Below are positions 22,012 to 59,552 of a stretch of DNA of 64,000 nt, in pieces. The DNA comes from Isoetes taiwanensis (lineage: Eukaryota; Streptophyta; Lycopodiopsida; Isoetales; Isoetaceae). Position numbers and translations under genes: made by a program. The stretch lies in assembly GCA_021234155.1 (NCBI GenBank), contig JAJEKV010000026.1:17326468-17390467 (forward strand), given 5' to 3'. Below the pieces are notes generated by a model. It made no database searches and was not told where the DNA came from. It saw nothing but the letters and a program-made list of their open reading frames with translations. Position 1 is the first letter of the stretch; every line of letters starts with the position of its first letter.

Positions 22012-22043
22012 AACCATCATTCAATTAAATTGGGATTATGTCT
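22012..22043 (+). repeat. Left TIR of transposon A
   Basis: These 32 bp are identical to the reverse complement of 34,019-34,050. They are followed by a 26-bp tandem duplication (CACTTTTTTAGTAACTTTGTT, 22,068-22,116), a common subterminal feature of DNA transposons. Confidence 0.95.
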
Positions 22044-22261
22044 TAATTTTGGGATAAATTTTATATTGCACTTTTTTAGTAACTTTGTTAAATTCACTTT
22101 TTTAGTAACTTTGTTGCCCTTAGACTAGAATAGACGTTAACATATAATCACACACGGGAATATAAATTCACACCTTAACTTCAAATTACAAAATCATATA
22201 TCATGAAACTCAAGTAGTACACAACTTTTATTAAAAGTGATTGATACATAGTAACTGTTTA

Positions 22262-25227
22262 TCATTTTTCCACCAACATCCCCAAGGATATGAGAACCTT
22301 ATTCCTTACATCCTGAGGTATTGTAACTCTCATTTGTTTTACTAGGAATAGTTTTGGAGTCCATGAGTACAATACGGTTTCAATGTCTAGCCAAAGATCG
22401 GGATCACTAGGATTTCTCCTCCACCTCTTTGTCCAACAATCTGAATATCTTTCTTTATGGGTGACATTACTCAACTGATGTCTTTGGACACCACCATTCC
22501 ACGCCAGACCTTATTGAAGTTAACATCACCTTCTTCTTTGCAAATATCTGAGATAGTCCATCCCAACCACCTTTGGATAGGTCTCTAGATCTTTGGTTTT
22601 ACTACTACAAATTGGTGGCACTCCACGTCGGGTAGAAGGTTCATAACAATCCATGCCTAGATATTTTGGCCTATCCTTCTTAGGACCAACATAGTGTTTA
22701 TCGATTGAGGAGGAGCATATGCCTTCACAATGCTACTAATGGTACCATCATCTTCACAAGACCAGCTAATGTTTTCCACTTACTTTTAGGGAACCACCCT
22801 TCCGGAATTTGTTCGAGGATGTGTCTACCTCATCCAACAAGTTGATCACCTTCTTCCAATAATCTATCAATGCACGATTAGTCTCATCGAATTAGTTTGC
22901 CAATGCTTGATGTAGTCATTGATGCCATCCTTAGTCAAGCCCAATTGCTTGACTTCTTGATTGGTTTTAGAGCTTTTGGTTGACCAGAGGTATCATAGGC
23001 TTGCCATTTGCATCCCTGGCGCCAAATTTCTGCCCCACCTCTCTACTTCTCCAAGGAAGGTCTCATTTTCCATTGCATGATTGGAATCCCTTCTCTCACC
23101 CAAAAGTGAATTGAAGAGGTCTAGAATGACCTTCCATGTCGAGAGCATAACCATCCACAAAACTCTTCCAATCAGGCACTTCTTCTATGATAGATCCTAT
23201 AGGAGATGGATTTGTACATCCATGAAATATTTCCAATAGCCCGGGAAAGTTGGTAAATCTGCTTGTCTCAATACATGACTATATTTTCCAAACAATGCAT
23301 CCACATCCTCATGAGTATGTGTGGGGCATTAGGAACCCCAAATTGACTCTTTCAAAAATACCCACAAGTGTTAAGTAGGATAGGAAAGAAAACATCCACC
23401 TATTCTTATTTTGACAAAGACAATTATCTAGTTGCAAGAGGAGCTTTACGGGCAGATCTCGAGGTTTAGTACGAGATGTTGAAGCTCCAACATGTTCATT
23501 AGGTCCATTCCTCCTAAATCTTGCCTTGCTAAACTTTTCAATACTATTAGGGTTCCATCCAACAATGCACTATGTAGTGCCCGGCTAGTCAGTAGGATCC
23601 TGTAGGTGACCATTGTAACCCTTCTCATAGTTTCTTAAACACCTCATGATACTCCCAATGTGAAAATCGGACCATCACTCCACAACTCTAAACCCAAAAT
23701 GGCCATAATAGGTCTCCAGGCGCCCATGCAATATTGCCCCGATCATTGAAATCTGCAAAGGGTATGATCTTCCACATGACTTAGGAATGTACTTTGAATT
23801 GTGGAAGACAAGTCTTCGTTGGTCCATTTTATCATGTATAATACATAGATAGTTATTAGGTTCCATTGCGGATAAGGTCCTCCACATCCAATAAGTTGAT
23901 CTACATGATAGTTGATCTCATCATATGGTCCTTCATATGTTCCCTTATCTTTGCCCTTAGACTTGGTTTACGCGGTCTTATCTAGTGTCTCCTTGAGCTT
24001 AGCACATAAATTGCACTTGGCAAAGTTGTTTGAAGTTGCTATGGTCACATGCTTGAAATGCTTATTCCATAGCCTACTAAACTGGGCTGGGATATAGAGG
24101 CCACTCAAGTTCTCAAGCAATGCATTTATTTCCTCTAATATGCTCTTTTCCGGGTACAATGGGATGGCAATCTCTTTTCAACAATAACTCTACCCCTGCT
24201 TCATCCTTCTTACTCTTATGTGGCATGTTTTACGCATTGAAATCCACATATCTTTCAAATATTTCCTTTGCAGCTATAGTTCTTGAGGTAGGCCTTACCA
24301 GGCCGGTGTTCCCATGCAATGCAATTTTACTACCATTTTCATGTCTCTTTTGCCGCTTGTGCCAAGAAGAGGTTGGAATTCCATGTATAGCCATCCATGC
24401 TTTTGAACATATCCACTTTCCATTCAATGGGAATCTTTTCTTCTTTTGATCTTTCATCTGAATTGCATAGCCAAATATGGTGTACATGAAATTCCTCCTG
24501 CTATCACACTTATGTTCCCGATATGTAGCTCTTGCTCCCACCAACTCCTCTATTGTGAACATTCTAACACAAGAAGCCCAACAACATTCACCTCCTCTAA
24601 CCTTCATCATAGCTTCGGAGAACAATCATAATCGACTTGCATCTTTTGGTGGGATAATGTTTGAAAGTTGGAAGTGGCCTCTTGCTACCGTGTGAACATT
24701 GTTGACAATGGTTCTACATCTATAGGAAACGTGTAGTCCTCCGGTTGAATAATGCCCCTAGGCCATGCAACAATAGTTGGAACCTCTAGTTGCTTCACAC
24801 AAGCTAGGCATTCTTGTTTCTGTCTGAACCCTTTTCCTTCCAATTGTCATATAATTTTGAGATTGCCACACCTAACCCGTCCTCCCCTAATCTTTTTCAT
24901 CATTCACTGCATTGATAGGATCTGCTAGAACAATAATCCCTTCTCCTACTGCCTCTCTGTTGCATGCATGCAGGATCTTGACCTTTTTGTTTTTCCAATC
25001 GACCCGAGTATAAAGTACAATTTCCTTTCCTTTGGCATCATCCTTTTCATTTGAGGCCTTTTCCTTTCCTTTGCCATCATCAACATCATTTGAGTCTTTT
25101 CCTTTCCTTTGCCATCATGAACATCATTTGAGGTATTTTCCTTTCCTTGGCCATCATGTTCATTAGTTGGGGATTTTTCCTTGCCTTGATCAGCATCATT
25201 AGGGGCTTTATTTTTAGCATTTTGCAT
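22262..25227 (-). pseudogene. Transposase-like gene of transposon A (DUF7869-type)
   Basis: Minus-strand blocks appear in the order I remember for the DUF7869-type family. First comes a charged N-terminus with ~13-residue repeats (DVHDGKGKEK), 25,000-25,227. Next are a Cys/His-bearing region (WICSKAWMAIHGIP, then ALHGNTG) at 24,230-24,625 and FSRLWNKHF with FAKCNLCAKLKETL at 23,968-24,159. A DKMDQ block follows at 23,800-23,840. LLLQLDNCLCQNKNRW lies near 23,420 and a THTHEDVDALFGKYS block near 23,310. A C-terminal SWTPKLFLVKQMRVTI segment lies at 22,262-22,474. Acidic residues in DGMDQ-, LQLDN- and HEDVD-like blocks could form a DDE/D triad (inference). The gene has several breaks or unrecognised introns. 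Confidence 0.7.
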
Positions 25228-25409
25228 GCCATTGACCTAGAATGCATAAAAATATATAGTAAGTTAGCATATCCAAATAACCTCTCAATAACATGTTCAT
25301 AAATGAAAGCCTCATATGTCTTATTCTATTTGATCATTCTATTTATATAATGGGATTCCCCAAGTTATTTTCCTCAACATTATATATAAATAAAACCCTC
25401 TACTTATTA

Positions 25410-25641
25410 GCCTTATAACTTGTATCCTATAATAACCTTTGTAATAAATTTTAACCTTGTAAAAGGGATAACCCTTATGAGGGTTAACCTTAAAAGGTTA
25501 ACTTAACCATTAAAGGGATAACCTTGGTATCCTATAATAACCCTTATAATAAATTTAACCTTATTATTACAAGGGATAACCTTGGTATCCTATAATAACC
25601 CTTATAATAAATTTAACATTGTTATTACAAGGGATAAAATC
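25410..25641 (+). repeat. 58-bp tandem repeat, about three copies
   Basis: GGTATCCTATAATAACCCTT recurs at 25,526 and 25,584 (period 58), with an earlier diverged copy from about 25,410. The array lies in the intergenic space between the two divergent genes of transposon A. It ends at AAAATCGCGG, which resembles half of the element's palindrome. Confidence 0.9.
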
Positions 25642-25779
25642 GCGGTCCTTAAAACAATTAACTTGGAGTGCAATAAATTTTGCGGAAGTTATAATGGTGA
25701 TTACATTTAAATTTTGAAAGCAGTTATTATTTCAAGTTAGCATTCGTTTTCGAACTTTTCTCTCTCACTTTTCGAATTC

Positions 25780-26300
25780 CAGGCGCTTCTGCTTCCAATT
25801 CCAGGCATTCCAGGCGCTTCCAATTTCTCGCTTTCTGCTTCCAATTTCTTCTCGGCTTCTATTTGCTTCAATCGCTTCTCGGCTTCTATCCGCTTCAAAC
25901 TTGGCTTCGCTTCAATCCGGCTTCTCGTCTATCCGCTTTGAACTTCGGCTTCTATCGCTTTTATCCGTTTTTTTATCTGCGCTTTCGGCTTCTACAATCT
26001 GTTTTTATCTGTTTTTTATCTGCGCTCGAAGTTTTTTACGCTTCTACAATCTTACGCTTTAGGGTTTTTTACCAAAGGTTTTTTCGGCTAAAAAGGTTTC
26101 TCTTTCGGCTTTTCTGGCTTTACGCTTTAAACTTCGGCTTCTATATGCTTTTCGGCTTCTATATGCTTTTTTCGCTCAATACAAGGTTCTATACAAGGTT
26201 TGTAGGCTCTATACAAGGTTTCTTCGGTTTTTTGGCTTTTCCGACTTTGAATAACTTTGGTTTTTGTGTTAAAGCTTCTAAATTTCTTATTGCTTTTTCT
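25780..26300 (+). repeat. Degenerate (GGCTTCTATMYGCTTT)n pyrimidine-rich repeat
   Basis: Phrases such as TTCGGCTTCTATATGCTTTT and TCTATACAAGGTT recur with irregular spacing. A long open frame through it is rich in Phe, Leu, Tyr and Arg from composition alone. It lies upstream of both divergent genes and could include promoter and 5' leader sequence. Confidence 0.6.
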
Positions 26301-26720
26301 CCAAATTAGTTGCTATTGCTTTTTTCTTCTTAAGGCTTCTCGAATCACTTCTTAAGGTTTCTCGGGTTAGTATTTATTGTTATTTACATAAAAGTAGTTA
26401 TTTTCCATAAAGCATGTTATTTACTTTTACATGCATCGGTTCTATTTCATATCATATCATTTCTCTATCATATCATATTACTCTATCTGTTCTATTTCAT
26501 ATCGATCTATGATCTTGCTCTATGATCTAGATCATAGATCATAGATCACGATCTTCACTAGCTCTTCCTCTACTCGTTTCTAAATAATGAACTAAAACAA
26601 TGAACTAAATATTGAACTAAACAAGGAGTATTATTATTATATATCCGCTCTAACCGTTTTTATATTTTGAATTTCCGCATTTCGCATTACGCATTTTGTT
26701 AGAATAATATGTTGGAATGG

Positions 26721-26852
26721 GAGAAATCGCTTAGGCGCATTTCTATTTTTGGGTTACGTTTTCCACTAGGTTAATCAAATCGCGCCCGGTAGCGTTTTAG
26801 TTGGCATTTCAATTTCATACGGCTCTATACAAATCGCGCCCGGTGGCGTGTG
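26721..26852 (+). promoter_or_regulatory. GC-rich palindrome cluster 1 of transposon A
   Basis: Three sites lie here: AAATCGCTTAGGCGCATTT (26,724-26,742), AAATCGCGCCCGGTAGCGTTTT (26,777-26,798) and AAATCGCGCCCGGTGGCGTGTG (26,831-26,852). Each is an imperfect palindrome on the theme AAANCGC-GCC-GGC-GCGNTTT in AT-rich surroundings. More sites follow at 27,304-27,325 and 27,369-27,390. Confidence 0.6.
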
Positions 26853-26888
26853 AAATAGATACGTGCTAATTACTTTCTCTCGATTCTA

Positions 26889-27344
26889 GTGCCATGGATT
26901 TTCCTTATGCATGGACCGGCTGGTTCAAATACACTGGCTGGTTCTAGTTCCCCGACGCACCATCAACTCTGGACCCTGTACAAGATATTACTTGAGTGTG
27001 CTGTTCAAAACGTTCAAAGAGAGTTGGAGAATCCATTAGACAGCCTGTATCAGGGGCCATGGGTACACTTCCATCGCATCTATGGACATATCAGACTCCT
27101 CATGCTCTTAGTAAGGCTCATGCCAACAAATAAGTACAAGGATTTGATTTATAGTATCGGGGATCGATACAAACACTGTTTGGAGACTCGACATCCTCGG
27201 GGAAAGATGAGGATCCCATCATATCGGGGTGGTTCAGGTGGGACTTCTTGCGGGATTAGGCGGATGAAGTGGGCTGTCCCGACATATTGTAGAGATAGAA
27301 AGAATTGGCGCTGGCGCATTTTGGAGAAGAAGAAATGTACATAA
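26889..27344 (+). other. Possible exon of unrecognised protein in transposon A
   Basis: A plus-strand frame reads in a protein-like way (YKILLECAVQNVQRELENP, HFHRIYGHIRLLMLLVRLMP) over about 100 residues, ending in a basic tail. I recognise no family. Its position between palindrome clusters, upstream of the ParB-like block, suggests a 5' exon of the plus-strand gene. Confidence 0.35.
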
Positions 27345-27477
27345 CTTTTTTGGAATATGAATACAACCGCTCGCGCTGGCGCAATTTTGCACTATACTTT
27401 TCTACGTCATTAGTTTATTTTTTTATATGCAATGTCGAAAACATTGAATCACTGGATGCCTCCAGCCCGGTATGACC

Positions 27478-27524
27478 AACCCCAAGAAACTACATATTTT
27501 CATTAATGTGTAGTTTCATGGGGT
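27478..27524 (+). other. Hairpin AACCCCAAGAAACTACA / TGTAGTTTCATGGGGTT
   Basis: An 18-nt arm pairs with its inverse across an 11-nt loop with one or two mismatches. It lies in non-coding sequence of transposon A. It could be a transcript end structure or a remnant of a smaller insertion. Confidence 0.6.
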
Positions 27525-30130
27525 TGATATGATCATAAAGAGCATCAAAGAATACAAAGTTCACAACATCACGCCAGATGATATGATATATTTTTTTTTT
27601 TTGAATATCCAAATATACATACCTTTTTTTTCGGACGTTCTTCTTTTGGCCATGCTACAAATGTGCCCACGCTTTCAACCGCCCCATACGCTAAGGGATG
27701 TCTTCTTGGAAGAGCCTCATCTTCATAATTGCGGTTTAGAATAGAAATCTTACGTAAACTTGTTCCAAGAGGAACACCATGACACATAGAACTTGGATTC
27801 AAATCTTCGATTTTACACAATCCTACTCCAAGACTTCAAGTTTGTTGTTAAAAGATAGCATTCTTCTCTAATCGCGATAAAGAACCGAATGCATTGTAAA
27901 AATAGAGGACGAAAAAATTGAGAACAAGAGAATGCATTCGAATTCACCATAGTTCGCGAGACATCGAATGGGAATTGAAGGCGGCTCGATCGAATGGATT
28001 GAAGGCTCGATCGATCGAATGGGATCGAACGGATCTTGGGCCTTCGATAGTCGATTGTTCTTGGGCCTCGATACTAGGAATGATCTTGGGGCCTCCGATA
28101 GTAGGTGGCCGATTAGGTGGTAGTAGATTGCCACATATCGCGTTTCTTGAAATTAATAATTAATTGTTATCTTGAAATTGCACTAAAAGAAAAACACAAT
28201 TTAAATTTGTAAATGAGCGGAGGCGGTTAATTAAGGCGGTATAAATTTAAAAGGACGCCAATTTGAATTTACGATTTGTAAATCGGACGGCTTTAGATTA
28301 TGAACGATACATATAAGTTTAAACCAAAACCCCGATCTCATACTATCCGCACTTGCGATTCTATGGCGTCCTAGATCGGGCCGCCACAGGCGCCGGTAGA
28401 GGTGGGCTTACGTTTCAGCACAAATCCCAAGCCCTAGAAAGTTTTGATCCAACAATCCCGGGTAATTGATCTGCTTTTTTGTTTTGTAATTGATTTCGTG
28501 TCCTTTTATTGTTAGGTTTCTAGGATGTTTTTCAACCGCGGTGTATTTTCCGTGTATCTTTGTGTCGCGTGTATTGTCTACCTTTCATATTGTTTCGTGT
28601 GTCATTTCTCTGCTTTTACTACCTTGTTTTTGTGTGTTTTTTGTTATAATCTTCTCCTTTACTCGAGATATGTTTTTGTTGGAACAATTATCCATTTTGT
28701 ATAATGTAGACCGTGTAAGTCTTCTTCAGATTCTCCAGTTCTTTTGACAAGTCTTTTTTTGTAGCCTAGTATGTCTCTTATAAAAAGAGAAGAAAGGTCC
28801 CCTCTAAGAACGCGCGGGCGCGATTTATAATTATGAGTGGTTTTGGTTGTCTCTGCTACTTTCCACTGTACAATTTATGTTTTTGAAAGTAAAGGCGTCT
28901 ATGAAAACGCTCGGCCGCGATTTCATTACTCACCACATGATTGTAACTTTCGGGATCTTCTAAAAATGTGAAAAAAAAGCAAAAGCACAAGCGAGGTCCG
29001 AGGACATCCGCACGAGAAAAACCAAGAACGGATGAAGATGTATCGATTTGAGATTTTGGCACACGTTGTGACCATTGACGATATCTGGCCAAAATAATGA
29101 AGGCTCGGGTAGAGCCTCCATGTCGAAGAAGATCTACCGGAGGGCTCACGAATGGTATGTGGAGATCTTCAAGACTAAGCGGAAAGACGATCGATTTTCA
29201 TGTCTAGAGTTAAGGAAAGAAAGATCAAATGAAGAAACAAAGGTATTCTGATCACATGCGAAGAACAGGGCGATTCTTATCGTTCAGACATTACTTGAAG
29301 CGGGTCGAGAAAAATAAAAAGTATTGAAGAAGTTAAATTCTTTGCGATTGCTAGTTCCTTTAAAAGACCGCCCTAAGAGCGGATGAGGCGCAGATAACCT
29401 CTTCAAATTTGTTTGGTCGGTGGTGATCTATTGACACCAAAAAAATATGTGAAGGTCTCTCAATTTGAGAAGAGCAATCAGTACAAGGCCGTCGGCTAGT
29501 CTGTACCTACAAGCTTTAAAAAAGAGAAGGAAGATGCAAGTTCTAGAGCCGTGGGAAACACCGTGACGTTCTAGGGCATTACGTGATATGACTAGTGATG
29601 ATGACAAGGCGAGAGCGGTTAGAGGCCATGAGCAAACTCAAGAAATATGTCGACAAGTATCCACCTGGCCTTAGCTTCACGATCCTATCCATGTCCATTG
29701 GGCTTTTCGTGTCCACGAAGGCTATGTTTGTCGCCAGAAGATTTGACAAGCAAAGACGAATGGAAATAGTCGACAATGATGATAGAAAACCCGGACAAAA
29801 AAGCCAATGCCTAAGCAGATGTGGTGCCTTTTGATATGAAGACTAAGAAGGTGTTGATATGGAATAAACTTGAAGATTTAACGGCAACCTCGATATTCAC
29901 TTCATGATAATAGATGGCCAAAGATTCGATGGAGGGTGGAAGGTTTTGATCGGGCCAAGCACAAAAACCGGAAATCGGTTATTCTATAGACCGTATTCAA
30001 ATGTAAATTGCCGCATTCCTCGGTGGCTCCACAACACGCCGGCGTAATTAGCGAAATCAAATCAGCCGCCTTGAATGACATGGGAAAGACATTCCTGTAC
30101 AAAAGGTATTTTATGTTCCACACATAGCGT

Positions 30131-30373
30131 TTAAATGCGGTAGCGTTTTAAGCTAATCACGTATTTACAAAAACGCGCGCTGGCGATTTCTTCATATGGC
30201 TCGCGATTTTTAAATATTGATTAGCAAAAGCCACCGGGCGCTGGCTTTTTATGTTGTTATTTGTGTGACGGATTTACAAAGAAACGCTTTGGCGCAAATT
30301 CTTCATCATGAAGAAATCGCGCCCAGCGAGCGTTTTGTAAATCGTGGATTAACTAAAACGCGGGGCGCTTTTA
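30131..30373 (+). promoter_or_regulatory. GC-rich palindrome cluster 2 of transposon A, inside an intron
   Basis: Six sites fall within the intron 30,106-30,429: around 30,131, 30,169, 30,226, 30,280, 30,312 and 30,354. Examples are AAAACGCGCGCTGGCGATTT and AAATCGCGCCCAGCGAGCGTTTT. They are variants of one palindromic theme, 33-57 bp apart. Confidence 0.65.
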
Positions 30374-32397
30374 TATTGTTACTTTCACGACTTGTTTATT
30401 TTTTTTATCTAACGGCCCATATTTTGCAGTCCGTATGTGGAGCAGTTGCGGCACGCTCGTAACCAATGGATCGAATATGGAAAACCAATGCCGACCAGAC
30501 AAGGGCAATCTAAGAGTGCCGAATTCAAATTACTAGAAAGGACACTGTGCCAAACCATAATGGGGACAAGAACAAGGCCACTAGATCAAAAGAAGAAAAA
30601 GGGATGCACAAGCCGCACGAAAGAGCAAACGGTGCCAAAGGATGCATGCAAGATTATTTTTCTTCGACCGGTATGGGAAAAGTGGAACGTATTTTGGGAC
30701 GCCTATTCGAAAAGAAGTTGCCGATTCGTATGGCGGGGTTTCCTCCGCAAAGATCACGTCTATTTTTGATATAGGTATCCTGAAATGAGAAAGGCACAAG
30801 GATTGGATGATGCAGAATTAATCTCTGTTCTAGATAGTTGCATCAGAAAGGAAGTTATCTACAAGAAAACGTCTGCAGCAAAGCACTTGACATCTTTCGA
30901 AGATGCATGCGAATCGATAAAGAATATGAAAGTCCTGAAAAAAGCTGTTGGTGAAGAACTGCAAAGGCTCTCAGGAGACATGATGTTATCAGAGATAGGC
31001 TTAATGCAAAAGTACAACGTATCTAATGATGACATTAAGAAATATGTATTTTGGTCAAAAGATTTTGTGAAGCGACAAAGCTTAAGAATGTGGCAACTCT
31101 TAAGGGGATTCACACGAAAAGTTGCGTCGACCTAAAAAAAGAAAAGTTGCTTTGGTGAAGAAGACGGCGAAGACGAAGTCTCCTTTTTCTATAAAGGTGT
31201 CCAATCGGTTATAAGTGTGCCATGCGAGGTAGGTGAAGGGCCAACCGACATCACTCTATTTGTTCTTGATAGCCGTGGCACGAGATGGACTGGGATGATT
31301 CAAACACCTTCTTCAACACATGCGGTGGTTTGACGACCGAGATGCATTATACTATCGCGGTTTGCCACTACCCGACATTTCCTAATGATATGCACTAGTC
31401 GCCAAATGATGTCGAATGCATTAAAGTGATGAGGCAAGCAAAGAATGATAGATGAAAACAAAGATAGTGAGTTTAGTACCAAAGTAAGATCTCACATGTG
31501 CTAGTCCTTATGATAGCCATTATGGATGATAAAGAATATGAAAGACTCAAGGGGAAACCGGAAGGTGAGAAGATTGCTTGGCGGTGCTATCGGCTAGATG
31601 AACCCCTATTGAAGAATGTTTTTTATGTCGAATCCAATTGCTAAGACAAAGGGAAAGGGACGGCAGATGTGGATGTGGACACGGGACGAAAGAGGAAGAG
31701 GAAGAGGAAGAAGAAAATCGGTCGACCATCCTTAATTCACCAATCAAGGGCATGAGCCTCTTGACGGCGCATAAGGGGAGGCTGAATAAATACGGTTTTC
31801 TTTGGCCCTTTCGAAGTTTTACGATTGAAGCCTTACCCGTTAGAGTCTCACGTGTTGGGAGTTTCATGTTGGAGGTTATGTCGTGGCGGGAAGCTCTGAA
31901 GCTAGCTAGGAAATGCCAAAGTGTGGTCTCGATGGTCAAGCCAAGGACTTCCTCGATATTTTTTCGAGAAAGTGCTAGAGGTGGCACCTAGGGGGTCCGC
32001 TAGGTAGTGCAAAAAAATAAAGCTTCCAGCTCTAAGTCAGCTTACCTCGCAGATCCGCCGCAGAGGGGAAGAAATGAGAAAGCATATAGAGGGCATAAAG
32101 AAGAATATCGACAAACAGCAAATTTTAACTATGCGGCGAGAGGCGTGCCTATCCTTCCAATCACATTGGAAAATCCGACGAAGTGGATGTAGGTAACTAA
32201 AGCTAAGAAGACAAAATCCTAGATGATACAATTGGATTCGGGAAAGCTCGAAAGGTTAGCATAAAGAGTAATGAAGTATCAACCATAGTTCAAACACTAA
32301 GCGATAAAACGACACTTCGCGTAATCGAAGACGGTAGGAAGTAAGCTCATCATTGCGGATGTTGAACGAAACCGAAGGTATGTTATTCAAAGCGAAA

Positions 32398-32502
32398 TGA
32401 AAATCGCCGCCAGCGCGATTTCAATTTTTCAAACGAATTGAAAATCGCGCCAGCGCCGATTTCAATTATTCAACAATTGAAAATCGCCAAGCGCATTTCA
32501 AT
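32398..32502 (+). promoter_or_regulatory. GC-rich palindrome cluster 3 of transposon A, inside an intron
   Basis: Three sites (AAAATCGCCGCCAGCGCGATTT at 32,400, AAAATCGCGCCAGCGCCGATTT at 32,440, AAAATCGCCAAGCGCATTT at 32,479) are spaced 40 and 39 bp. Each is followed by TCAATT. They lie in a probable intron (GTATGT at 32,378, AG near 32,545). Confidence 0.7.
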
Positions 32503-34018
32503 TTTCTTTTCCTTGTCTCACAAGTGTGTGCTTTATTATTCTGAGACCTAATCCGGTTTCCTCCAAAATTCGGTGTTCGATTTGAATGGAGTGCTCGCAA
32601 AAGCGTTACCTAAAAGCACAATTTCCTTTATCATGGTATGCACAGAAACCATTTGAGGCATATCGAAATGGGTATATCCGCGTCGTATCTGAAGGAGATG
32701 TTAGACCAAGCTTTCTTTTTATTTCGTTGTGCAATTTGGTCGTCGATGGAGAATAGAAATATCTGAGGAAGTTTTGAGAGTAGTTCCCGAAGTTACATAG
32801 AGATTGGGCATCTGTTTGGGATCGAGCAAATGTAAGTCATTCAATAACCCAAAAGGAGTCTACGGGTAAAAAAATATTTGTGAAATGCTTGAGCGACATG
32901 ATGGATGACTTGATGTTCAGGAGAAGGAAGACATCATTATAGTTGATGATGACGCAGAAGTGTTGCTTCAATCATCCGCGATCACTAAATCCACCATCCT
33001 ATCATCGAGGATTTTGAAAAGATGACTTCTGCCGTTTTGTCGACATCTTGCGAAAAATATCTACGGAAAAAGGTCGAAGAGATACAAACACTATACCCTT
33101 AACTTAATCCGGACGGGGAAATTGAGGGGACCTAGAGAAGATCGTTCTAGAAAGGGAACTTTTTGATATATATATATATGTATCTGGGGAAATACACTTT
33201 CCAATAAGTTTTGAATATGAAATATACTTTACACCAAACTCTTTCGAATATATATTGTGTTCTTATATCAGCATTATTGGTTCTGTGTACGTATTGTTCT
33301 TTTATATTACGTGTATGGTTTGCTATACTTGCAATAATTTGTATGTATATACCGTCAATAATTTAGGTGTCTATAAATACGTATGCATGAAATTGGCAAA
33401 CCATCGGCCGGCTTCCCTTACGCTTTGTTATTATGGCACATTCTATTACTCGCCGGATGAACCACGCAGACCTCTGCGAAGTGCCGCGAGCTAGAAATAG
33501 AACTTCAGGACTGGCTTGATGTCGCTTGCTATGAATCCCGTCCTTCTATCCTCGATCCCTTTGATGTTGTAATCCATCTTATATGGAATCGAGCATGGTT
33601 TGTTCATGATCGAAAGGATCTCACCGCTGCTTGGCCTTTGTCGGCGATGATTCGGATTAGTTTTAAAGTTTATGTTCCACTATAATCGTTATTTATGGGA
33701 ATAAAATCGTGCCACGCCGATTTGACCTTTTGAAAATCTACTTTGTAGCAACTTGCTTGTTGTTATTTATTAAAAAAACACTACAATTTCAATGTTTAGA
33801 TTTCGTTGTCGCCGGTGATTATGCAATTAATAAGCAATTTCCTACTTTTTATATTGCCAACATTCTTTCATAATATGGGTCATTTGGACCGAATATTTGG
33901 ATGCCCTTGCATTTCAACATAAAATGCATCTTCCTAGCCCGAAAATGAACTCAGTGCAAAAGTGTGGTTAATTCAATATAATGGTCAATAAATAGCTTAT
34001 ACGGCGCGATTTTGGAAT

Positions 34019-34050
34019 AGACATAATCCCAATTTAATTGAATGATGGTT
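34019..34050 (-). repeat. Right TIR of transposon A
   Basis: The exact inverted copy of the left TIR. Just inside it lies a GC-rich half-palindrome (GGCGCGATTTTGG) of the element-specific motif family. Confidence 0.95.
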
Positions 34051-34975
34051 CTCCTCTGTGCTCCCTTTCCATAAATACACCCAAATACATCTGGTAATCT
34101 CATCTAGGTATTTCTGCTTAATTATCCAGCCACTAGTGAGGTACCATAGAGCTCCAAGTATGATGCTATTTATGACAGTTGCTCTTGCTGGCAGGGAAAG
34201 TCCTTTAGATGCCCACTTTTCCAGGTGGTTCTTTATCAAGGAAACCATATACACTTCCTGATCAGAATTATTCACATCTGGGCCAATCTGAAAACCAAGA
34301 TACCTTGTTGTTTCATGTTTTTCCAGCCAATGAAATCCTCTGTCTTCTCCCCATGTGGGTTTGTTTGTTGGAAACCCAGATGCCATAAGGTTTGTCCCAA
34401 TTAATTGAGGCTCCCGAGGCAAGGCAGAACGTCTCCAAACAATTATTCATTTTGTCAAGGTTGCTCACTTCCCCTTTCACAAACAAAGTTGTGTCATCTG
34501 CAAACTCACATTCCCTGAGGTCCAAATCATGATTTGTAGGTTCCTTCAGAATTGCATCTTCCTTAGGGAGTTCTAACCCTTCTGGTCCTTCACTACTTGT
34601 CAAGAAGTGTCCCAGGGCTTCAGTCATTAAAATGAATAATGCCGGAGCAAGCGGGCATCCTTGCCTTACTGATCTGGCCAAAGGGATGGGATCCCCCATA
34701 TTCCCATTCACCACTACTCGACTGGTTGAGTTCCTGTAAAGTATTGAAGCCATAGATACAAATTTACTGTCAATACCAAGCTGAATCATTACCTTTTCCA
34801 TGAAATCCAGTCAGTCCTATCATAAGCCTTTTCAAAATCCAAGAGGCCTCAATGTGGTGATATTCTCAAAAATTAGTCTTCCCTTAACAAAGCCCGTTTG
34901 TGAACTTCTGATGACTGAAGGCAATATATTCCGAACCCTCATTGAGAGGGGTTTTGCTAAAATTTTGTACACCGT
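34051..34975 (-). mobile_element. LINE (L1-like), reverse-transcriptase part
   Basis: The minus strand gives the palm motifs of a non-LTR reverse transcriptase in order: QTGFVKGR near 34,895, LDFEKAYDRTDW near 34,830, SVRQGCPLAPALF near 34,660 and the active-site FADDTTLF near 34,490. ETTRYLGFQIG near 34,300 and a thumb segment ending WKGSTEE at the transposon boundary follow. The frame changes at least once between LDFEKAYDR and the next block. Coding similarity starts abruptly near 34,975, so the copy is 5' truncated, as most LINE copies are. The endonuclease domain is absent. Confidence 0.9.
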
Positions 34976-45677: not shown

Positions 45678-45727
45678 AGGGTTGGTTTTCCATGTTCCCA
45701 CAAATAGTAATATTTACAAGCAATTTA

Positions 45728-48888: not shown

Positions 48889-49043
48889 ATCTCCCCTTCA
48901 TGCCTATGTGATAATAGTCCCAACATCTTCTACCCCTAATTCTTTTTGAAACAATTTAAATTTGGACTCAGGCAAAGCTTTTGTAAATATATCTGCACAC
49001 TGTACATCTGTAGGCCTATATAACACAGCTATTTCCCCATTTT

Positions 49044-49449: not shown

Positions 49450-49458
49450 AAAAATCTT

Positions 49459-50230: not shown

Positions 50231-50239
50231 AAAAATCTT

Positions 50240-51162
50240 AGAATGCGTTTTGCACATTTCCAATGTCCCTCGCCAGGATTGTTCAAAAATTGACTTAATA
50301 TATTTACTCCATATGTAATATCAGGACGCGTACAGTTCGATACATACTGAAGACACCCAATAAGTTCTCTATAAGGTCGGTTCATCATAATATTTTTTTC
50401 TTCTTCTGTTTTTGGGCACATATCAGAGCTGATTCTTTGCCCAGGTGCTACTGGAGTGCTAGCAGGTTTGCATTCATCCATCTTAAACCTTTTAAGCATA
50501 CCTAAAATATTCTTTTTCTGGGTAATAGCTATAAATCCACTTTCCCTATGTCTATAAACTTCCATACCTAGTAACTGTTTAAGTTCCCCCAAGTCTGTCA
50601 TCTGAAACCTGTGCTTTAAAATATCTTTGTAGCGTTCTAGGCAATTAACATTGTTTGCTGCCATGACACAATCATCTACATACACAGCGATTAAGCAAAA
50701 ATGATCTCCGTCTCTATAGACATATACATTTCCATCCATGTTTAATTTTTCAAATCCGTTTGCTTTCAAATGATTGTCAAGACATAGATACCATTGCCGT
50801 GGCGCTTGTCTTAGACCATAGACTGCCTTCTACAGTTTCCATACTTTATCCCCATCAATCTCATAACCAGGAGGTTGCTCCATATAAATCTCCTCATTTA
50901 GGTCTGCATTTAAAAACGCTGTGCTAACATCCATATGATGCAATTCTAAATTGTGCACGTTAGCAATAGCCATAATCGCTCTAATACTTGTTAACTTAAC
51001 AATAGGAGAGAAAGTTTCATCATAATCAATACCTTCTATTTCCGTAAATCCTTTCGCCACCAGTCTAGCTTTGAATTTTTGCTGTCCATCTGGCCCTTGT
51101 TTAATTCTAAAAATCCACTTGTTTCCAACCACATTTCTATTATTAGGCCTGTCAACTAATTT
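50240..51162 (-). pseudogene. copia reverse transcriptase region
   Basis: Sense-strand motifs include [10 protein letters not shown], the metal-binding [12 protein letters not shown] block and the active-site YVDDCV. A transposon lies on each side (B upstream, Mutator-like downstream). Fossil; broken. Confidence 0.92.
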
Positions 51163-51187
51163 AACACGATTGCAAATTAAACGGGAG
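51163..51187 (+). repeat. Left TIR of transposon B
   Basis: These 25 bp match the inverted right end (59,528-59,552) at about 22 positions. Internal hairpin AAACGGGAGTG/CACTCCCGTTT spans the inner edge (51,178-51,206). Confidence 0.85.
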
Positions 51188-51687
51188 TGTTGCATCACTC
51201 CCGTTTCAAAGATTCCCTTTAAAAAAACACCAAGTTTCTAAAATAAGCCTTTTTTGATAGTTGTTAAGAATTTCTAGAGGTTTGCATTTTTTTTCATGCC
51301 ATTTTGGCCCATTATTAGACGAAAACTTTGTACTTATGAAACACAAATCATAAAAATAGCAAAATTTAGGCATAGACTTGAAGAGATCGAAAGCATTACA
51401 AAAACAACAACACCGAATAGAAAGGAAAAAAAAAGTACTATGTTTTAATAAATTGTTGTACATCAATATTGAAGATTCATTGTAATAAATAATGATAATT
51501 TTAATATCACGGTAGTCAAAGATCTACATCATAGTCCTCCTCATTCTTTTTTTTTGCTCTACGCCATCTCGCCCTTACGTTTCTATCCGCTCCTTTACTT
51601 GGGGACTTGAGTTTTGTATCCTCCTTGTTCTCTCGGAATGGTAGCTAAAGCTACTTCTTTAAGCTCTGCAAAAGGTTGCCTCATCGT

Positions 51688-54600
51688 CTAGTGAGTGGAG
51701 AATGGAGGTCGTATCTCCGAGGGCGTTAGTTTAGCATAATCAGATGAAGACTTGGCCCCTAACTCTCGATTTTCATCCGGTAAAGTAGGTAAGGCAGCCG
51801 GTCTCATCTTCACAAAATGCACGACCTCCTTATCAATATCCACGGCTACGGTTGCGGCCCTTCTTAAGTGCACATGCGATAGTAGTACCAGAACCGAGAA
51901 AGCATCAAGTACCCAATCTCACGGGACGAGAACATGTCCGGAGATGGTTGATGAGCTTTTGTGGTTTCGGTAGTGATTCACAAATCGCCTTGTGCACTTG
52001 GGTCCTGCATTTCGTAAGGCTGGCTGGAAACTCTAGGGCGTTTGAAAAAGTTTTGACGGCGGCAGTGTTAAAGTGATCCATGGTCCTCTTCCCATCAAAA
52101 CTCCAATAAGCTACATGAAGGTACTCTACCTTGCCGAAAGCAACCTTGGTCCTCCACCATGGTAGTTGATGTTCGTTTTGTACCTAGTGAAGCATATATA
52201 AAGTGATATTAGCAAAAACAAGCAAACACTTGAAAACCGAAAAAGGGGAAATACTATTAGGAATACACACTACGTTATTAAAGAGAAAAGTAATTGTGAT
52301 ACGGAATAAGACTTACCGCACAAGGTTTTCATATCACTTTGAACTGGAGAACCAAAGTGATTTTTGTTGATTCCACCAAGCCGACGCATGCTCGAATGGA
52401 GCGTAACTAAACGCCAATGTTTGGCCGTTGAGATCTGCTTAATTCCTTCAATAAAAGCATTAAACTCGAAAATTTGAAGGGCTGGTTGTCATTATCTGCG
52501 TCTTTAAGCTTAAACCCATATGGAAGATCAGCAATAACCAAAGTAAAGTCCCGTGGCTTCACCGTTCGACAAGGTTCGTGCAATCACCATGAATGATTGA
52601 ATATAAATTGTTTTGATCAAACATGCGAGAATCTCGGGGTTAGTCGGATGGTTTCGGCTCAACAGTTCTTCTTTATTAGCGACCTCTCTTCCCGTCTTCG
52701 TTCTAACCAAATTCATAAAGCCCTCGGGTAGGTCTTTATTTTTCTTTTTGCTCTAAGAAAAACAAAACAACAACTGTCAAAGAGATCGTTTGCAGGAGAG
52801 AAGGAATTCTAAGTGTAATTACCCAGCCCTCAAAATTTGGTGAATATTGGACAATCGCTTTCGTCGGATGTGGCAATTGGGTAGAGTTCCTTGCACCTTT
52901 CCCATGTGTCGACGTTTAGCTGCTCCATCAAACATGTTTGACATGTTATGACGTTTTTTGGTGCAAGGCGTTAAGGAAACAATGAGTTTAAACGAAAAGA
53001 ATGAAGGCAACGTAAAAGAAAAACAAATACAAGTCAAGCTAATTGTATTCTAAAATACAAACCGGTTAACTTGTGATGCTACCTCGAAACAATATGCGAG
53101 AAAATAGTTCTACTACTGGGACAAACACATTGCTTCTCTAAAGGAACGCATGCGTATTCCGAATACACGGGCCAACATTGGGAGGAGCAATGTGTATTCC
53201 GAATACACATGTCTTCCTTCACCACGGGCAATGTGTATTCGGAATACCTAATGCCTTTCTAGAGACAAGCAATGTGTATTAGGAATACACATTGCCCGTG
53301 TGTAAAGAAAGGCATGTGTATTCGAATACACTAGCCTGTAGATGTTTTTGGGAATCTATCATGCAATTACTAATGTTTGTGTCCGGAAAACTTACTTGTG
53401 TAATTCCTTTGACATTTCTTCTAGGCTAAACTCCTTATCAACAACTTTTTGGAGAAGCTGCCGAGCTCCTGTCGGAGAAGCCTCAAGCATTTCCGCCAGA
53501 CGGTAATGGTCATTTTTTTTTTTGGGATGCGTCACGAGCTTTTTCTTAGCTGTCTCCTTTCCCTTGCTCTTTAACTCCCCTCGCTCGAACATTGTAAATA
53601 TCTGGTCCTGGAGTTCCCAAATCTGTTCAAGAAGATTCATGTTAAATAGTTGATTTGCTATTCTGGAATACATTTTGTGCTTACCTTGCCATCTCTAAAA
53701 GCTAACTGGAACCAGTTGTCGTGGCCAATGAGAGACTGCCTTTTGTTGGCCTCGTCATATTTCAGGCAGCATTCAATAGCACACGCCTCCTTAAGCTCCA
53801 AGGAAAATGCTGGCTTCTTCGGGTCCCTCACGGTACTTTTCCTTGAATATTACATTACTCCCATTGCATGAACCGGATCTTGTCGAATGGCTCATCTTTA
53901 ATTTATATTCGTTGTCAGCATTGTGGGTGTTGGCAACGATTTTCGCTTCTTCATCGGTAAGACCACAGTAAACAGCGCAGAGGACGGAGAGGTACCTCGG
54001 GTTCTTCTTCTCTTTATAAAGTTGCCTTCTTGCCTTAAAGCTGTGATTGCCTCCCAAGACGTAGTGAGTGTAGGTCTCTGCGTTTTCTCTGTCATAGTCC
54101 TGGGGGGTTTTGCACTCTTCCCTGTCAACAAGGACAACTATTGGGGCCACATGAGCATTTGGATTGCTCCTTATTACGTCTTTTCGGGTTCCTTAAGTGA
54201 TCGGCATAAATTTTTTGCGAACCTGAAGTGGCCTTTCACCAGCTTCATTTTTCGGTGGAAGCTTCATTGAAGTGACTGGCAAATAAATTACACCTTGCAC
54301 AAACTTGTGCAGGTTAATCTCTTCCATCTTTTCAGCTGTCTTGTCAACTTTTTTTTCCTTTATAGCAACACCAGGTGCTTTACCCTTCCCCTTCTTCTTC
54401 TTAGGTTCCTCGGAAATATCCTCTGCTGCAATTAAGGCCGTCTGCTTTTTTTTAGGCTCTTTAGCAGCAATTGTGTCCCTTGGCCGCTTCTTTGGTGGTG
54501 GTGGCCGGTGGCCTTTCACGGTTGTGATGGACTCCCAGTTGTGATGAGGAACTGCTTTCGGGCTCGGTTGCTTATCCTCTTCCTCGGGCTCGGACTTCAT

Positions 54601-54800
54601 TTGTAGGGGAAGTCTTGGCTCGTTATTGCGAACATAGTTGATGATGGCGGCGACCTCTTCTCTGATGTAGTGAGCAACATACTTGTCACGAGGAAGGGCG
54701 AGGATTTACTTCGCCACTCTAAAATAGGATTCATCAACATGAATAAAGCCTTGGGATGTTTGAAAGACAGATCTCCCCGGCCTGGCCGGACTCTCTGACT
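51688..54800 (-). pseudogene. ParB-like / DNA methyltransferase-like gene of transposon B
   Basis: Minus-strand order: an N-terminal stretch (LALPRDKYVAHYIREEV, about 54,600-54,700), then a Lys/Pro-rich nuclear-type region (54,193-54,600). A ParB-like domain follows at 53,791-54,150 with THYVLGGNHSFKARRQLY and AVYCGLTDEEAKIVANTHN, matching the nuclease/CTPase fold of ParB/Srx proteins. Next is a helical segment (LLEQIWELQDQIFTMFERGE) ending at a GTAAGT donor (53,395). After an intron containing palindromes come further exons. The last part (51,690-51,900) has GSGTTIACALKKGR and VAVDIDKEVVHFVKMR, the AdoMet-binding motif I and following strand of N6/N4-type DNA methyltransferases. Motif IV (DPPY/W) was not located here. 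ParB-methyltransferase fusions are known from phages and plasmids. Several breaks are present. Confidence 0.65.
53150..53335 (+). promoter_or_regulatory. Palindrome array 1 of transposon B (intronic), ~41-bp period
   Basis: Five copies of the palindrome TGTGTATTCCGAATACACA or close variants start at 53,152, 53,192, 53,233, 53,274 and 53,316, giving intervals of 40, 41, 41 and 42 bp. The spacers differ from each other. The array lies in the intron after the helical segment of the ParB-like gene. Confidence 0.9.
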
Positions 54801-55289
54801 ACTTCACTCTAATGGATTTGGATGGTGCCCATGCAAACAAATTCCCTCTCATCGTACCTTTTTGCTCCAGCACTCCGACAGACATGTAGGAAAGTAAGTG
54901 TGCTGTACTTTCCAGAAGTACCCCTTGTAAAAAACCATTGAGTTTGAAAGTTTTCGTAGATGGCAGGCGCAGATGTCTCCTCAACCCTTCTCTGTGGGTG
55001 CGGTTTCGTTGGGATTTTAACGGTTCTCTTGTGTTGTTTCTTGCTGCCTTCTTGTCTGTGCAAATTGTGTGTAAACACGATCTTGTTAGAGAAAGCAGTG
55101 GCAAAAAACTATTCCAGAATACAAAATGTCTTGCGAAAAGGAAAAAACAAGGGCAAAAAGAGGACCAAAATGCCAAAACAACACGCAATCTTGACAAAAA
55201 CAGGTCTAAACAAGTTTTAAAAAGCAGAAAAACACCTAAAGTCACTACAAAATCACGGAAAAACAAACTTACAAAACAAAAGAACACGA

Positions 55290-55600
55290 ATGTGTATTAG
55301 GGAATACACTTTAGCCTTTGAGGGAAGGCTAACGTGTATTCGGAACACACTATCGGCTTTCCTCAAAGGCGAAGTGTATTTCGAATACACTTTTAAGCCT
55401 TTCCTTCAAGGCGAAGTGTATTAGGAATACACTTGCCCGCCTTCTCTCGGCGAAAGTGTATTCGAATACCTACGCTCGCCTTCCTGAAAGTGTATTCAGG
55501 AATACACGGCGCCTTAAGGCGAAAGTGCTACACTTTCCTCGAGGGAAGGCGACAGAGTTTCGGAATACACTCTCGAATACGCAATGTATTCGGAATAAAA
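55290..55600 (+). promoter_or_regulatory. Palindrome array 2 of transposon B (between divergent genes)
   Basis: Six GTGTATT-N-AATACAC palindromes start at 55,292, 55,334, 55,374, 55,416, 55,456 and 55,490 (intervals 42, 40, 42, 40, 34), followed by two degraded sites near 55,555 and 55,584. Spacers often hold a second inverted pair (GCCTTT...AAAGGC, GCCTTC...GGCGA). The array occupies the shared upstream region of the two genes. Single relatives occur at 55,830 and 55,900. Confidence 0.9.
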
Positions 55601-56717
55601 ACGAACACACAAATGATTGTACCTTGTACTTTCTTACTCACCTCTCCATGTTTTCTCTATGTGAATCCGAATGATCTGAATATAATAATCGGCTGGCTGG
55701 CGACTTAATTTGAGCTGAGATCTGAATACTAACGAAAGCCCGAAATTTCCTTTTTAAAGGTGTCCATTCCGTCTTGCTCGTTTTCTATGTGAAGTGGAAT
55801 ACGTTTGGCCTTCTTGCTCGCTCTAGTGTATTGGGAATAGCTTTTAGTTTGCCTTTCTTTAATTGTTGCGGGAAGTTCTACTTTTAGTAGGCGGGCTTGT
55901 ATTCGGAATAAGAAAAGCTGCAGAGAGAAACATTATCTAAACTCTACAATCGCTTTGCAGTTCTTAAGATGACAAACCGTCAACAAACTTCCACCACCTT
56001 TCGTTGTCTCAAGCTTCGTGCGGTTTCGAGGACACGCTTGGGACCAACGTCGTTTCTTCCCGAAGACCGAATTCTCCGACTCCTACCTCACGCTTCATCG
56101 TTCTTGCTTCGAGAAGACACAGGAGTCCAAAGACGTAATGGACTTCCACCACCCTTCCAACCGTCACCAAGTCACGTAGGCGGCCTGCTTGGCATCTCCT
56201 TCCAAAGAATCACCACTAGTTGGGCGGGCTGCCACCACCCTTTGCTCCATCCCGGGACTGCCGAAGCTCCACAACAAAGGGTGCTCAAGAACAAGCTACC
56301 CCCTTTTGTAGTTTAGCCTCCGCCGTTGCAAACATACAAGGAACACGAGAAAACAAGGCTGCGGAGATTCACTACAATTTCTCTCACCGGGACTTCACTA
56401 CAAATGAGGGGAAGCTCAAAGATGCACTCCTCTTCACACAACAAGGGTTGTGACACATGGATTTTGAGAATTCCGGTCCGCTCTAAAGGAGATGTTTGCA
56501 AGAACTCCTTTTCAAGATGGTACAAGAACAAATTGATGCCACAACCTCTTATGGGCCATCACCACCCTTTAACACTTGCACCCGCCTATTAGGGAACAAC
56601 TTCACGTGGTCTCCGTTTTCCTCTACAAGCACACCACTTTCGAGGACGGAGGAAGTCACCCCCGAGTAGAAGTTTCATCGAGAAGATGAAGACACCAACG
56701 AGGAACAAAGAGATTAC

Positions 56718-58989
56718 ATGTTCTCAAGCCAATCTTCAAAGAAATTCAAGGTGGATTTTGGTTTGAGGGCTTGCTCCTCTGCAAGAAGAAGAAATCTTAT
56801 GGATGAACAGAAAATGAGGAGACTTTTGAGAACTAAATGCTGCTCATTGGGTTGCATCAACAGACTTAACATGGCTAAATTACGAAGCGTTAGAGACAAC
56901 TACGTTCCATGACATTGGCGCACTGTAATGCCTACTTAGCTTATCATGTAAGACCAGACCGCAACACCTTCTTGCACTACATTAACCGTCAAGAAGTTTG
57001 CCAGAAATGTTTTATGGTTGTCCACCGTTTAGGGTCCACAAGAATGTCTAGAATACACAAAAGACTGGACAAAAATCCAGCAATCGATGATCATTGTGGA
57101 CCAAGAAGAGTTGTAACCATGCATGCCCTTCTTGCCGTGGTGTCTGGATGGAGAAATATTTTAGAGAAACATGTGAGAAGCTACCTAACAGCAACATGTA
57201 TCATTTAAGCGATAACATCACCAAAAGATGTTTTAATGAGTACAAAGAGACTTGCACTCGACTTGGCGACATCTCTTACTCACACTTCACCGACCGTGGA
57301 AAAGTGAATTCGGTCTTGTGAAAATTCCTAGAAAAACATAGAATGTCCGCTTTTTGCTCGAGGTGTGCGTAATTAAAGAGTCAACGAAACCGCAAAGACA
57401 GAGGGTCGAAAAGAAGTAAGTTCATGTTCTCCAATCTCTCACTTGTTTTAGAGAAAATGCTTTGACCTGATTTCTTCTACAGATATTGTGCAACAGAACC
57501 TTGCCAGACATCGTGAACAACAAGCAGCAGAGAGAAGAAAGCTTGCCAAGCATAGAAAAAAAGCTCTTGAACGTCCACTGCAATACATGTCTGTTGTGAT
57601 TGATGGAATGGACCAAAAAAACAACTCTACCACATTTCTTGAACATTCCTAAAGATGTGCCAGAGGAATGTTTTGTTAAGGTCCACCTTGTAGGAGCTAT
57701 GGTCTTCAAAGGAAGTCTAAGGTGCAAAGTTTTTTTGACGTATCCAAACTTGCATGGTGACCCCAACCTCACAATTACAATTCTTAACAAGGTCCTGTGC
57801 GAGCAAGAGCAATTACCACCAGTGCTTTATCTGCAACTTGACAATACTACAAGGGAGAACAAGAATCAAACACTCTTTGCGTACTGTGCCATGTTAGTGG
57901 AGCTAGGGATCTTTAGAAAAGTGAAGCTCGGTTTCTTACTTGTAGGCCACACTCATGATCGATTGACCAAATGTTCAAAGAGATTTTACGTGGCTCTTTA
58001 GAAGGAAGAAGGCTTTTCGTCTTCCTTCTTTAGTTCGAATTATTGAAGATTCTTACACTCCTACTCCGGTGGTCGATCTTCTTAAAGAGCTCGCTGATTT
58101 GGAGAGAGAGTTTGTTTTCTCTCAACGTTCAAGCAGAGAACAAAGTCGTGAACAAGTTGAATGATCTCACCTTTCAACATCATATCAAGTTCTACTTGAA
58201 GGATGGCCAAAGCTTCTTCTGAGGGGAAGAAGTATACCACAACTAAGGACTGGAGTCCGCCCGGAGGATGCAGCTTCCTTAAATATATTCCGGACACTTC
58301 CTTCATAGAACGTCTTTGAGCAACTTCCTCTCAAAAATCCTAAGGAGTCAAAGCGGAAAGAAAAAGTACGAGAGTCATCCTTAAAAGCCATTGAAAATGG
58401 AATTTCCTCGAGCTTTAAGTACTTCTTAGAAGAAGATGGGATGTGGTGGAGTAATTTCTTTTCGAACAGAAAATTGTTGTACAAAACATAGCTCTAAGGC
58501 GGTTGCAAGAACCATTTCAATGGCCTAACACCTTCCATCAACCCGGCACCAAAGCAAAGGTCCAAGTGCTACATTTGCACCTGAAGTAGAAGACGAGGAG
58601 GACCGAGTCATGTACCTCGGACCAAGACGCAGGAATGAGCCCCAAGGTAATATCACAGAAATTACCAAAGGTATGCTAATTGCTCTTCCGACTGAGGAGG
58701 ATGACAAAGGTCGGATCGCGGATAGCAAAAGTGCTTGACACAGGTCAAGGAGGAAGGCTTAGTCACTAAACTCAAGATTCATTGGCTTTGCAAACTTCGA
58801 AAAAATGCTTTTGAAGGTAGATATGAGTTAGAAATGAGAAGCCAAGGAAAAGGGAGAAAGTCCAAGAAGGTGGGTTGTAGGGACGAGCTGAACCTTAATG
58901 ACGTGACTATATTGTGCTATGATTTTAAATTGAAATCTGACAATCGTCTCACGCCCTTAAGACTATCAATTTGCTTAAAAAGCTTGTAA
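56718..58989 (+). pseudogene. Transposase-like gene of transposon B (DUF7869-type)
   Basis: Plus-strand blocks in order: a Cys-rich start (CCSLGCINRLNMAKLRSVRDNY, 56,840-56,910) and a Cys/His block (YINRQEVCQKCFMVVHRLGS, about 56,970). Next is a helical block (YHLSDNITKRCFNEYKETC) and then YMSVVIDGMDQKNNSTTF near 57,590. The core follows at 57,830-57,960 with LYLQLDNTTRENKNQTLFAY and GFLLVGHTHDRLTK. A C-terminal module (VMYLGPRRRNEP, GMLIALPTEEDD, LKIHWLCKLRKNAFEGRYEL) runs to 58,989. As I remember it, LQLDN..NKN and VGHTHEDID are the signature of DUF7869 proteins. Acidic residues in DGMDQ, LDN and HTHD could form the catalytic triad (inference). A possible 5' exon starts at 55,969. Several breaks are present. 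Confidence 0.78.
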
Positions 58990-59527
58990 TTATGAAGAAG
59001 ATGATGAAGAAGGTGGTGACAATGCTTCACCGCCTCGTTGATAGTGATGAGGAAGATAACTCAAGCACTTCCTCAGTGGCGATGGAAAGAAGTGAAGTGA
59101 TGACGATGGCATAAATGAACATGAGGACGTCCTGGATCCCTCTCTCATCACTCCTCACACTTTTGCACATAACTGAGTCTTAGAAAAAGACTGTAAATTT
59201 TGATGTGAATATGAAGATTCTATCTTCAAATTTTGAGAATACTACAGTTTCAATTACAGACTTACTTCAATTTTTTGTTAAATATTTTATCCTCTGAAAT
59301 TAGAGTTTCTCTCTTAAAACATACTTTAAGAACATTCTTTTTGCTAAGAAAAGTGACACTTTAAAAAAGTCAATTCCTTCGTTGCAAAAAAAATTTAGTC
59401 ATTTCGGGGGGGGTCAAAATAGAATTTCATGCATCTTTTTTTTTTTTAACCTCATTTTACCCCCTTTTTCGTAAAAAAAAAGGGAATCTTTGCGGAATAT
59501 TCCTTTTGCTCTCGTTTCAATGATTTG

Positions 59528-59552
59528 CTCCCGTTTAATACGCAATCTTGTT
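59528..59552 (-). repeat. Right TIR of transposon B
   Basis: The inverted counterpart of the left TIR. Just inside, GCTCTCGTTTCAATGATTTG and GCTCCCGTTT repeat the TIR's inner GCTCCCGTTT in direct orientation. Confidence 0.85.

Follow-up and report, generated by a model that had tools for sequence, protein, structure and literature searches.

ParB-like proteins joined to a DNA methyltransferase have been described as accessory proteins of giant algal DNA transposons. In Sola1-1_Ec32 of Ectocarpus, an element of 21.5 kb, the gene opposite the transposase encodes a ParB-like part and an N4C/N6A methyltransferase in 1104 amino acids (aa), and such proteins were proposed to bind and epigenetically mark their own transposon (PMC12477816, in the parts of the text considered here). 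The same parts cite green and red algal cases of this accessory protein, and assign to EnSpm the giant red algal elements that have accessory genes. Here we describe elements A and B, two large DNA transposons with terminal inverted repeats (TIRs) in a 64,000-nucleotide stretch of the Isoetes taiwanensis genome (contig JAJEKV010000026.1, positions 17,326,468 to 17,390,467; the window), together with the palindrome arrays that they contain. Element B has in common with Sola1-1_Ec32 its large size and a ParB plus methyltransferase gene opposite the transposase, whereas the host of the latter is a brown alga and neither a palindrome array nor candidate sites are mentioned in the parts of the paper considered (PMC12477816). 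The green and red algal elements have the same type of accessory protein and differ in host lineage (PMC12477816). A preliminary description of the window had taken the ParB-methyltransferase partner for a novelty, which it is not, as this plan was already known from the Ectocarpus element. For this plan, neither the palindrome arrays, which that description did not mention, nor a land-plant host turned up in the literature searched, which covered few subscription papers.

In bacterial segregation ParB acts together with ParA, and a ParB-type protein and its clustered palindromic sites, parS, lie on one element. A and B likewise have clustered palindromic sites and, certainly in B and probably in A, a ParB-type protein on the same element; no ParA turned up in them, no search having been aimed at ParA, and B has a methyltransferase instead. 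Sola1 elements have target site duplications (TSDs) of 4 bp, as do A and B, which may belong to Sola1. In the bacterial protein Bce_0392 a ParB-type domain is fused to an adenine methylase, as in B, and the protein is reported to have nonspecific nicking activity; unlike in B, no transposase partner is mentioned in the sections considered (PMC5512222). Sola2-Fanzor elements, in the parts of their description considered, resemble A and B in the 4-bp TSD and in the combination of a transposase with an accessory gene, but the accessory gene is Fanzor, the transposase is of the Sola2 type and the TSDs are AT-rich (PMC3627910). We consider it probable that A and B are, as a whole, to be explained as transposons with a ParB-type partner that acts on the palindromes of its own element.

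Two elements and their families

Elements A and B belong to two families of large TIR DNA transposons, and each of them is a broken copy (Table 1). That both are transposons, and that B has the two-gene plan, is close to certain. The terminal arms of B, 26 nt long at 51162-51187 and 59528-59553, are 88% complementary. Each element interrupts another one, a LINE in the case of A and a copia element in the case of B, both names having been assigned by eye. After removal of A and one CTCC the LINE frame was open over the junction, with a frame change later, and after removal of one ATTT the copia peptide read on, by eye, from ..HTETYK into LVDRP... The 4-bp TSDs of the preliminary description, CTCC and ATTT, were seen at both elements; this length was shown in many copies of the B family and in one copy of the A family.

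When the four ends of A and B were compared, AAC, ATTAAA and GG were invariant, and to this extent the TIR likeness that had been claimed stands. Its ungapped pattern did not hold up: four matches in the window against 1.61 expected, with 6 of 100 shuffles reaching four, were not significant. These matches were both ends of B and two chance-level places, and the ends of A, one base shorter there, were missed. As a finder of other copies in the window the shared pattern was rejected, since beyond the two ends of B it gave only chance-level matches.

The genome (1.66 Gb in 1,110 contigs) was searched with a 551-bp transposase stretch of B and with a 723-bp query of A. The first look gave 1,607 candidate places for B and 753 for A, in agreement with the successful family that had been suggested. 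Of these candidates 40 of each family were scored, window copies included, at identities of 96-100% (B) and 91-100% (A). We sampled 20 of the 39 scored B places other than the window copy, and 20 A loci, L034 being the window copy. Both ends were present in 14 of the 20 B copies and an exact 4-bp TSD in 12 of these 14 (not in L019 and L027); the flanks of the 12 TSD-bearing copies do not match one another between copies. In L017 and L021 the left flank and the right flank match each other. DUF7869 transposase matches were found in all 20 B copies, and matches to the ParB-methyltransferase on the strand opposite to the transposase in 17 (not in L015, L022 and L025), including all 14 two-ended copies; a separate methyltransferase profile matched in 12 of the 20. 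The divergent two-gene plan was thus recovered in the family, and none of the outcomes that had been named as refuting it (TIRs or TSDs at other positions, a second gene absent from all other copies, transposases without homology) appeared in the genome-wide check of B. Both 3' pieces of the A family, L054 and L055, terminate in the same 32-bp TIR and have different flanks.

Among the B copies the transposase stretches are near-identical, and the left halves are from more than 90% to about 75% identical or without a blastn match. From this combination of similar transposase halves and divergent or unmatched left halves it is likely that left halves were exchanged between B subfamilies. Compared with B, the copies L020, L024 and L030 are about 89-90% identical over 4 kb in the transposase half and about 75% in the ParB-methyltransferase left half. 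In L033 every frame is open throughout the first 3 kb, which presumably consist of N.

Palindrome arrays of the two families

Starting from the words enriched in A and in B, we arrived at two different palindromes. The B-family site is mostly 18 bp long, GTGTATTCCGGAATACAC, with two central bases (131 sites in the 20 copies and B), while 49 sites have one central base and in element B itself the 17-bp form prevails. The A-family palindrome is 21 bp long and occurs most commonly as AAATCGCGCCAGGCGCGATTT and its A-to-T centre variant. The sites are spaced alike in both families, with 43 of the 67 gaps under 100 bp being 41-42 bp in the B family, and 30 of the 59 gaps listed (at least 59 in all) in the A family.

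With up to 4 mismatches, the window has 23 B-type places, of which 19 lie in B, where a Markov control for one element gave a mean of 0.85 and a maximum of 5; all 10 A-type places lie in A (control mean 0.25, maximum 2). The 20 B copies contain 91 sites with up to 2 mismatches and the 20 A loci 65 A-type sites at the strict setting, against none in each of 3 and 5 shuffles, respectively. No B-type site with two central bases and up to 3 mismatches was detected in the 20 A loci, and no A-type site in the 20 B copies; one B-like place without a central base lies in the window element A (27932, 3 mismatches). De novo palindrome counts ranked the arms GTGTAT/TGTATT/GTATTC first in 16 of the 20 B copies, while L026 was weak and in L015, L022 and L025 the B arms did not rank first. 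The half site AAATCGCGC of A occurs 13 times in the window with up to 1 mismatch, each time inside A, and it is this location that is striking. B array 1 was placed in a probable intron by the splice-like 5' sequences GTAAGT / GTAAGA, read by eye.

Among the centres of the 131 B-family palindromes TCCGGA was found 54 times, and its variants TCTGGA and TCCAGA 27 and 22 times. Such variants are expected from the decay of a methylated CpG.

The palindromes could instead be hairpins or minisatellites, explained by slippage, transcript structure, splicing or, in A, coding repeats, and have no link to ParB. Tandem Repeats Finder (TRF) indeed calls the arrays tandem repeats of 41-42 bp, the spacers of B array 2 form hairpins too, the copy number of the arrays differs between copies, and two A clusters are traversed by open frames. 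Against this, the two B arrays, 2 kb apart, are alike in their cores (86% identical) and not in their spacers (45%; random 39%), although the choice of sites by motif favours core identity in this comparison. The commonest spacing is moreover common to two families with unrelated palindromes, and L020 and L024 have kept the same palindrome with left halves only about 75% identical to that of B. We regard this explanation as unlikely.

Some transposase superfamilies bind repeated internal motifs. The DUF7869 transposase, and not ParB, might accordingly bind the palindromes as subterminal-type sites, and one A half site, at 34004, does adjoin the right TIR. The B sites are not subterminal, however, most of them being situated either in the probable intron that follows the ParB exon or between the genes, and binding by the transposase appears improbable to us.

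Transposase and partner genes

The B transposase matched PF25273 with E 9.6e-34 (117.1 bits, curated cut-off 26). A read-through query found 315 proteins with E <= 1e-5, and among the 120 matches listed were P0001 (77% identical) and proteins from Ceratopteris, Adiantum, the liverwort Riccia and animals. Profile A2, consisting of 39 of the proteins related to this read-through, found the corresponding region of A with E 3e-17 to 9e-9, which supports the homology of the two transposase regions; the DUF7869 membership of A rests on this profile and not on a Pfam match. A 31-row tree is divided by a 100/100 branch, with B, joined to P0001 (100/100), in the half that holds the named plant rows and A in the half with the named animal rows, in line with the preliminary description of two related, strongly diverged TIR transposons. 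A has the longest branch of this tree, as a decayed sequence may. In P0001, D42 and D119 are invariant and D161 is at least 90% conserved among 75 sequences; these residues may be catalytic, and DUF7869 is presumably the cut-and-paste transposase, of the DDE/D type. A PDB search with DUF7869 returned only chance-level xylanases, and a literature search on DUF7869 found no paper.

The ParB part of the B partner gene matches P0121-P0125, whose ends coincide with a splice-like GTAAGT in B (by eye); a PDB search with it found nothing. The methyltransferase read-through matched PF01555 with E 1.5e-14 (54.9 bits, cut-off 26.7), and PDB sequences matching this part include RsrI, MboIIA and CcrM. Its motifs, read by eye, follow in the order IV then I, from which we take it to be of the beta class. 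Phage methylases match this part among the 20 of 536 records listed, and no record covers 80% of the query; a pattern scan of IMG/VR viral contigs detected no relative of the B partner protein or transposase. A search from the methyltransferase part found 4 proteins, 3 of which (P0126-P0128) join ParB and methyltransferase. The gene models P0126-P0128, of the ParB and N6_N4 methyltransferase type, carry the prefix Gb_, which we assume to stand for Ginkgo biloba; if this label is right the accessory protein reaches seed plants.

The A partner was followed mainly in the family copies. The window copy was not matched by the ParB or methyltransferase profiles, Pfam, PHROGs, NCBIfam, PDB or hhalign; a frameshift-tolerant alignment gave 17.8 and 20.0 bits against controls of 15.1-18.2 and 18.8-21.4, and in a tile ranking the motifs read by eye took ranks 163 to 863 of 1064. 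In L044 a 490-aa open reading frame (ORF) could be aligned by hhalign with 128 columns of the ParB profile (E 3.2e-4, probability 39%), and it weakly matched DndB PF14072 with E 0.0055, below the cut-off of that family; the ParB profile matched the A loci L047 (E 0.011) and L044 (E 0.059). From these matches we think it quite probable that the divergent partner of A carries a ParB-like domain. The 410-aa ORF of L043 and the 283-aa ORF of L040 had no convincing family match. The ParB/methyltransferase partner that had been ascribed to both elements is consequently confirmed for B, while for A it is reduced to a ParB-like half with moderate support and without a methyltransferase. The methyltransferase motifs read by eye in A were dropped, and the family copies gave them no support; the best non-B tile for the C-terminal methyltransferase motif does belong to A (32041-32400, 17.2 bits; the runner-up scored 15.6), but is not counted as evidence. 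At 25834-26221, in the divergent intergenic region of A, there is a series of short repeats in which CGGCTTCTAT is abundant.

To estimate selection we used dN/dS in the longest open frames, a choice that is biased to intact stretches and includes some frames with shifted ends. The ParB exon of the B family gave 0.05-0.16 in eight pairs with dS > 0.2 and 0.19-0.48 in three closer pairs, dS being saturated in 4 of 15 pairs. For the methyltransferase exon the values were 0.09-0.26 in 14 pairs with dS > 0.9; L019-L032, with dS 0.38, stood at 0.58, and six close pairs ranged from 0.67 to 1.0. The B-family transposase pairs, all with dS <= 0.14, ranged from 0.23 to 1.06. Copies of the A family gave 0.29-0.98. 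If the ParB-methyltransferase gene were a captured passenger with no role for the element, the many decayed copies, the high methyltransferase values of the close pairs and those of the A family would be readily accounted for. The low values of the eight ParB-exon and 14 methyltransferase-exon pairs speak against a passenger, and so do the presence of the gene in every two-ended copy and the same partner in the brown algal Sola1 element (PMC12477816, as far as considered). We judge the passenger explanation very improbable.

Table 1. Positions of the features of elements A and B in the window, with the evidence for each.
Feature	Position	Strand	Evidence
Element A, complete DNA transposon	22012..34050	.	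TIR, TSD, LINE frame across joined flanks
A left TIR	22012..22043	+	32 bp, perfect against right TIR
A right TIR	34019..34050	-	same 32 bp ends copies L054 and L055, with other flanks
A TSD CTCC	left 22008..22011, right 34051..34054	.	flank comparison
A DUF7869 transposase, decayed	23090..24619	-	A2 profile hits, four in collinear order, E 3e-17 to 9e-9
A palindromes, half site AAATCGCGC, divergent intergenic region	26777..28926	.	enriched words, site scan
A partner gene, probable ParB-like part, decayed	28937..30108	+	limits estimated from locus offset of L044
A palindrome cluster within partner gene	30170..30370	.	site scan; L044 open frame passes through
A partner gene, further coding stretches, kind unassigned	30413..32390	+	410-aa ORF in L043, 283-aa ORF in L040
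A palindrome array, 41-bp period	32401..32500	.	TRF period 41, 3 copies; L040 open frame passes through
Element B, complete DNA transposon	51163..59552	.	TIR, TSD ATTT, family copies
B left TIR	51163..51187	+	inverted-repeat comparison
B right TIR	59528..59552	-	inverted-repeat comparison
B TSD ATTT	left 51159..51162, right 59553..59556	.	flank comparison
B partner gene, beta-class N6/N4 methyltransferase part (presumed class)	51703..52577	-	PF01555; P0126 pieces; tile rank 1/1064, two motifs
B palindrome array 1, with five sites spaced by 40-42 bp	53152..53331	.	probable intron after ParB exon
B partner gene, ParB part	53395..54696	-	P0121 E 1e-36; tile rank 1/1064
B palindrome array 2, divergent intergenic region	55292..55600	.	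site scan
B DUF7869 transposase gene, frameshift-broken	56535..59173	+	tblastn of P0029, P0001; PF25273
B transposase intron, single	near 57415-57487	+	read by eye

Elsewhere in the window, 35713-36452 is minisatellite-like, its open frames giving a NMPPRLKHAKMAQTCH-like peptide over and over, and pentatricopeptide-repeat-like open frames extend over two frames at 13594-15535 (family name by eye).

Proposed binding and marking of the element's own DNA

In the explanation that we favour, the ParB-type protein would bind the palindromes of its own family as a phased array, in the manner of ParB on parS, and the spacing of 41-42 bp corresponds to about four helical turns. For the binding of the palindromes by the element's ParB protein, taken alone, the arguments from sequence seem to us to tip slightly in favour. 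In B the attached methyltransferase would be brought to the element and would mark the element's own DNA with N6-methyladenine (6mA) or N4-methylcytosine (4mC). Such self-marking could regulate both genes, resist host silencing or distinguish own copies from other DNA. That self-methylation is the purpose of the system we put forward tentatively. We are just as cautious about the wider idea of a self-recognition system in plant transposons, in which a ParB-type protein, fused in one of the families to a bacterial-type N6/N4 methyltransferase, may bind family-specific arrays and write a mark other than 5-methylcytosine on the element. Such a system would be the counterpart of ParB-parS among transposons.

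Several observations weigh against binding and marking. The number of AAATCGCGC half sites is not exceptional (13 in the window against 8.22 in shuffles, with 7 of 100 shuffles reaching 13), and an unbiased palindrome count per kb, 1.99 in A, 2.74 in B and 2.07 elsewhere, does not distinguish A. Half-site families, when loosely defined, reach 6 members outside the two elements and 5 in B. Spacers within one array are 54-56% alike, so that a minisatellite origin is possible. At the strict setting no site was present in the B copies L014, L017 and L025 and the A loci L038, L049 and L050. Two A clusters are crossed by open frames, in L044 and in L040, and may be coding sequence or intron. No methyltransferase was detected in the A family, either in the ORFs of the 20 loci or in the two 3' pieces, and the A-family dN/dS values belong on the same side. 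ParB-methylase fusions are, finally, reported as nonspecific nicking enzymes (PMC5512222, in the sections considered).

The occurrence of two families with two palindromes and one common spacing, with candidates by the hundreds, makes the proposed self-binding directly testable. The presence of 6mA in plants is disputed (PMC12695648, in the part considered). If the proposal is true, a bacterial-type N6/N4 methyltransferase that marks transposons in a land plant would bear on this dispute and on the evasion of silencing.

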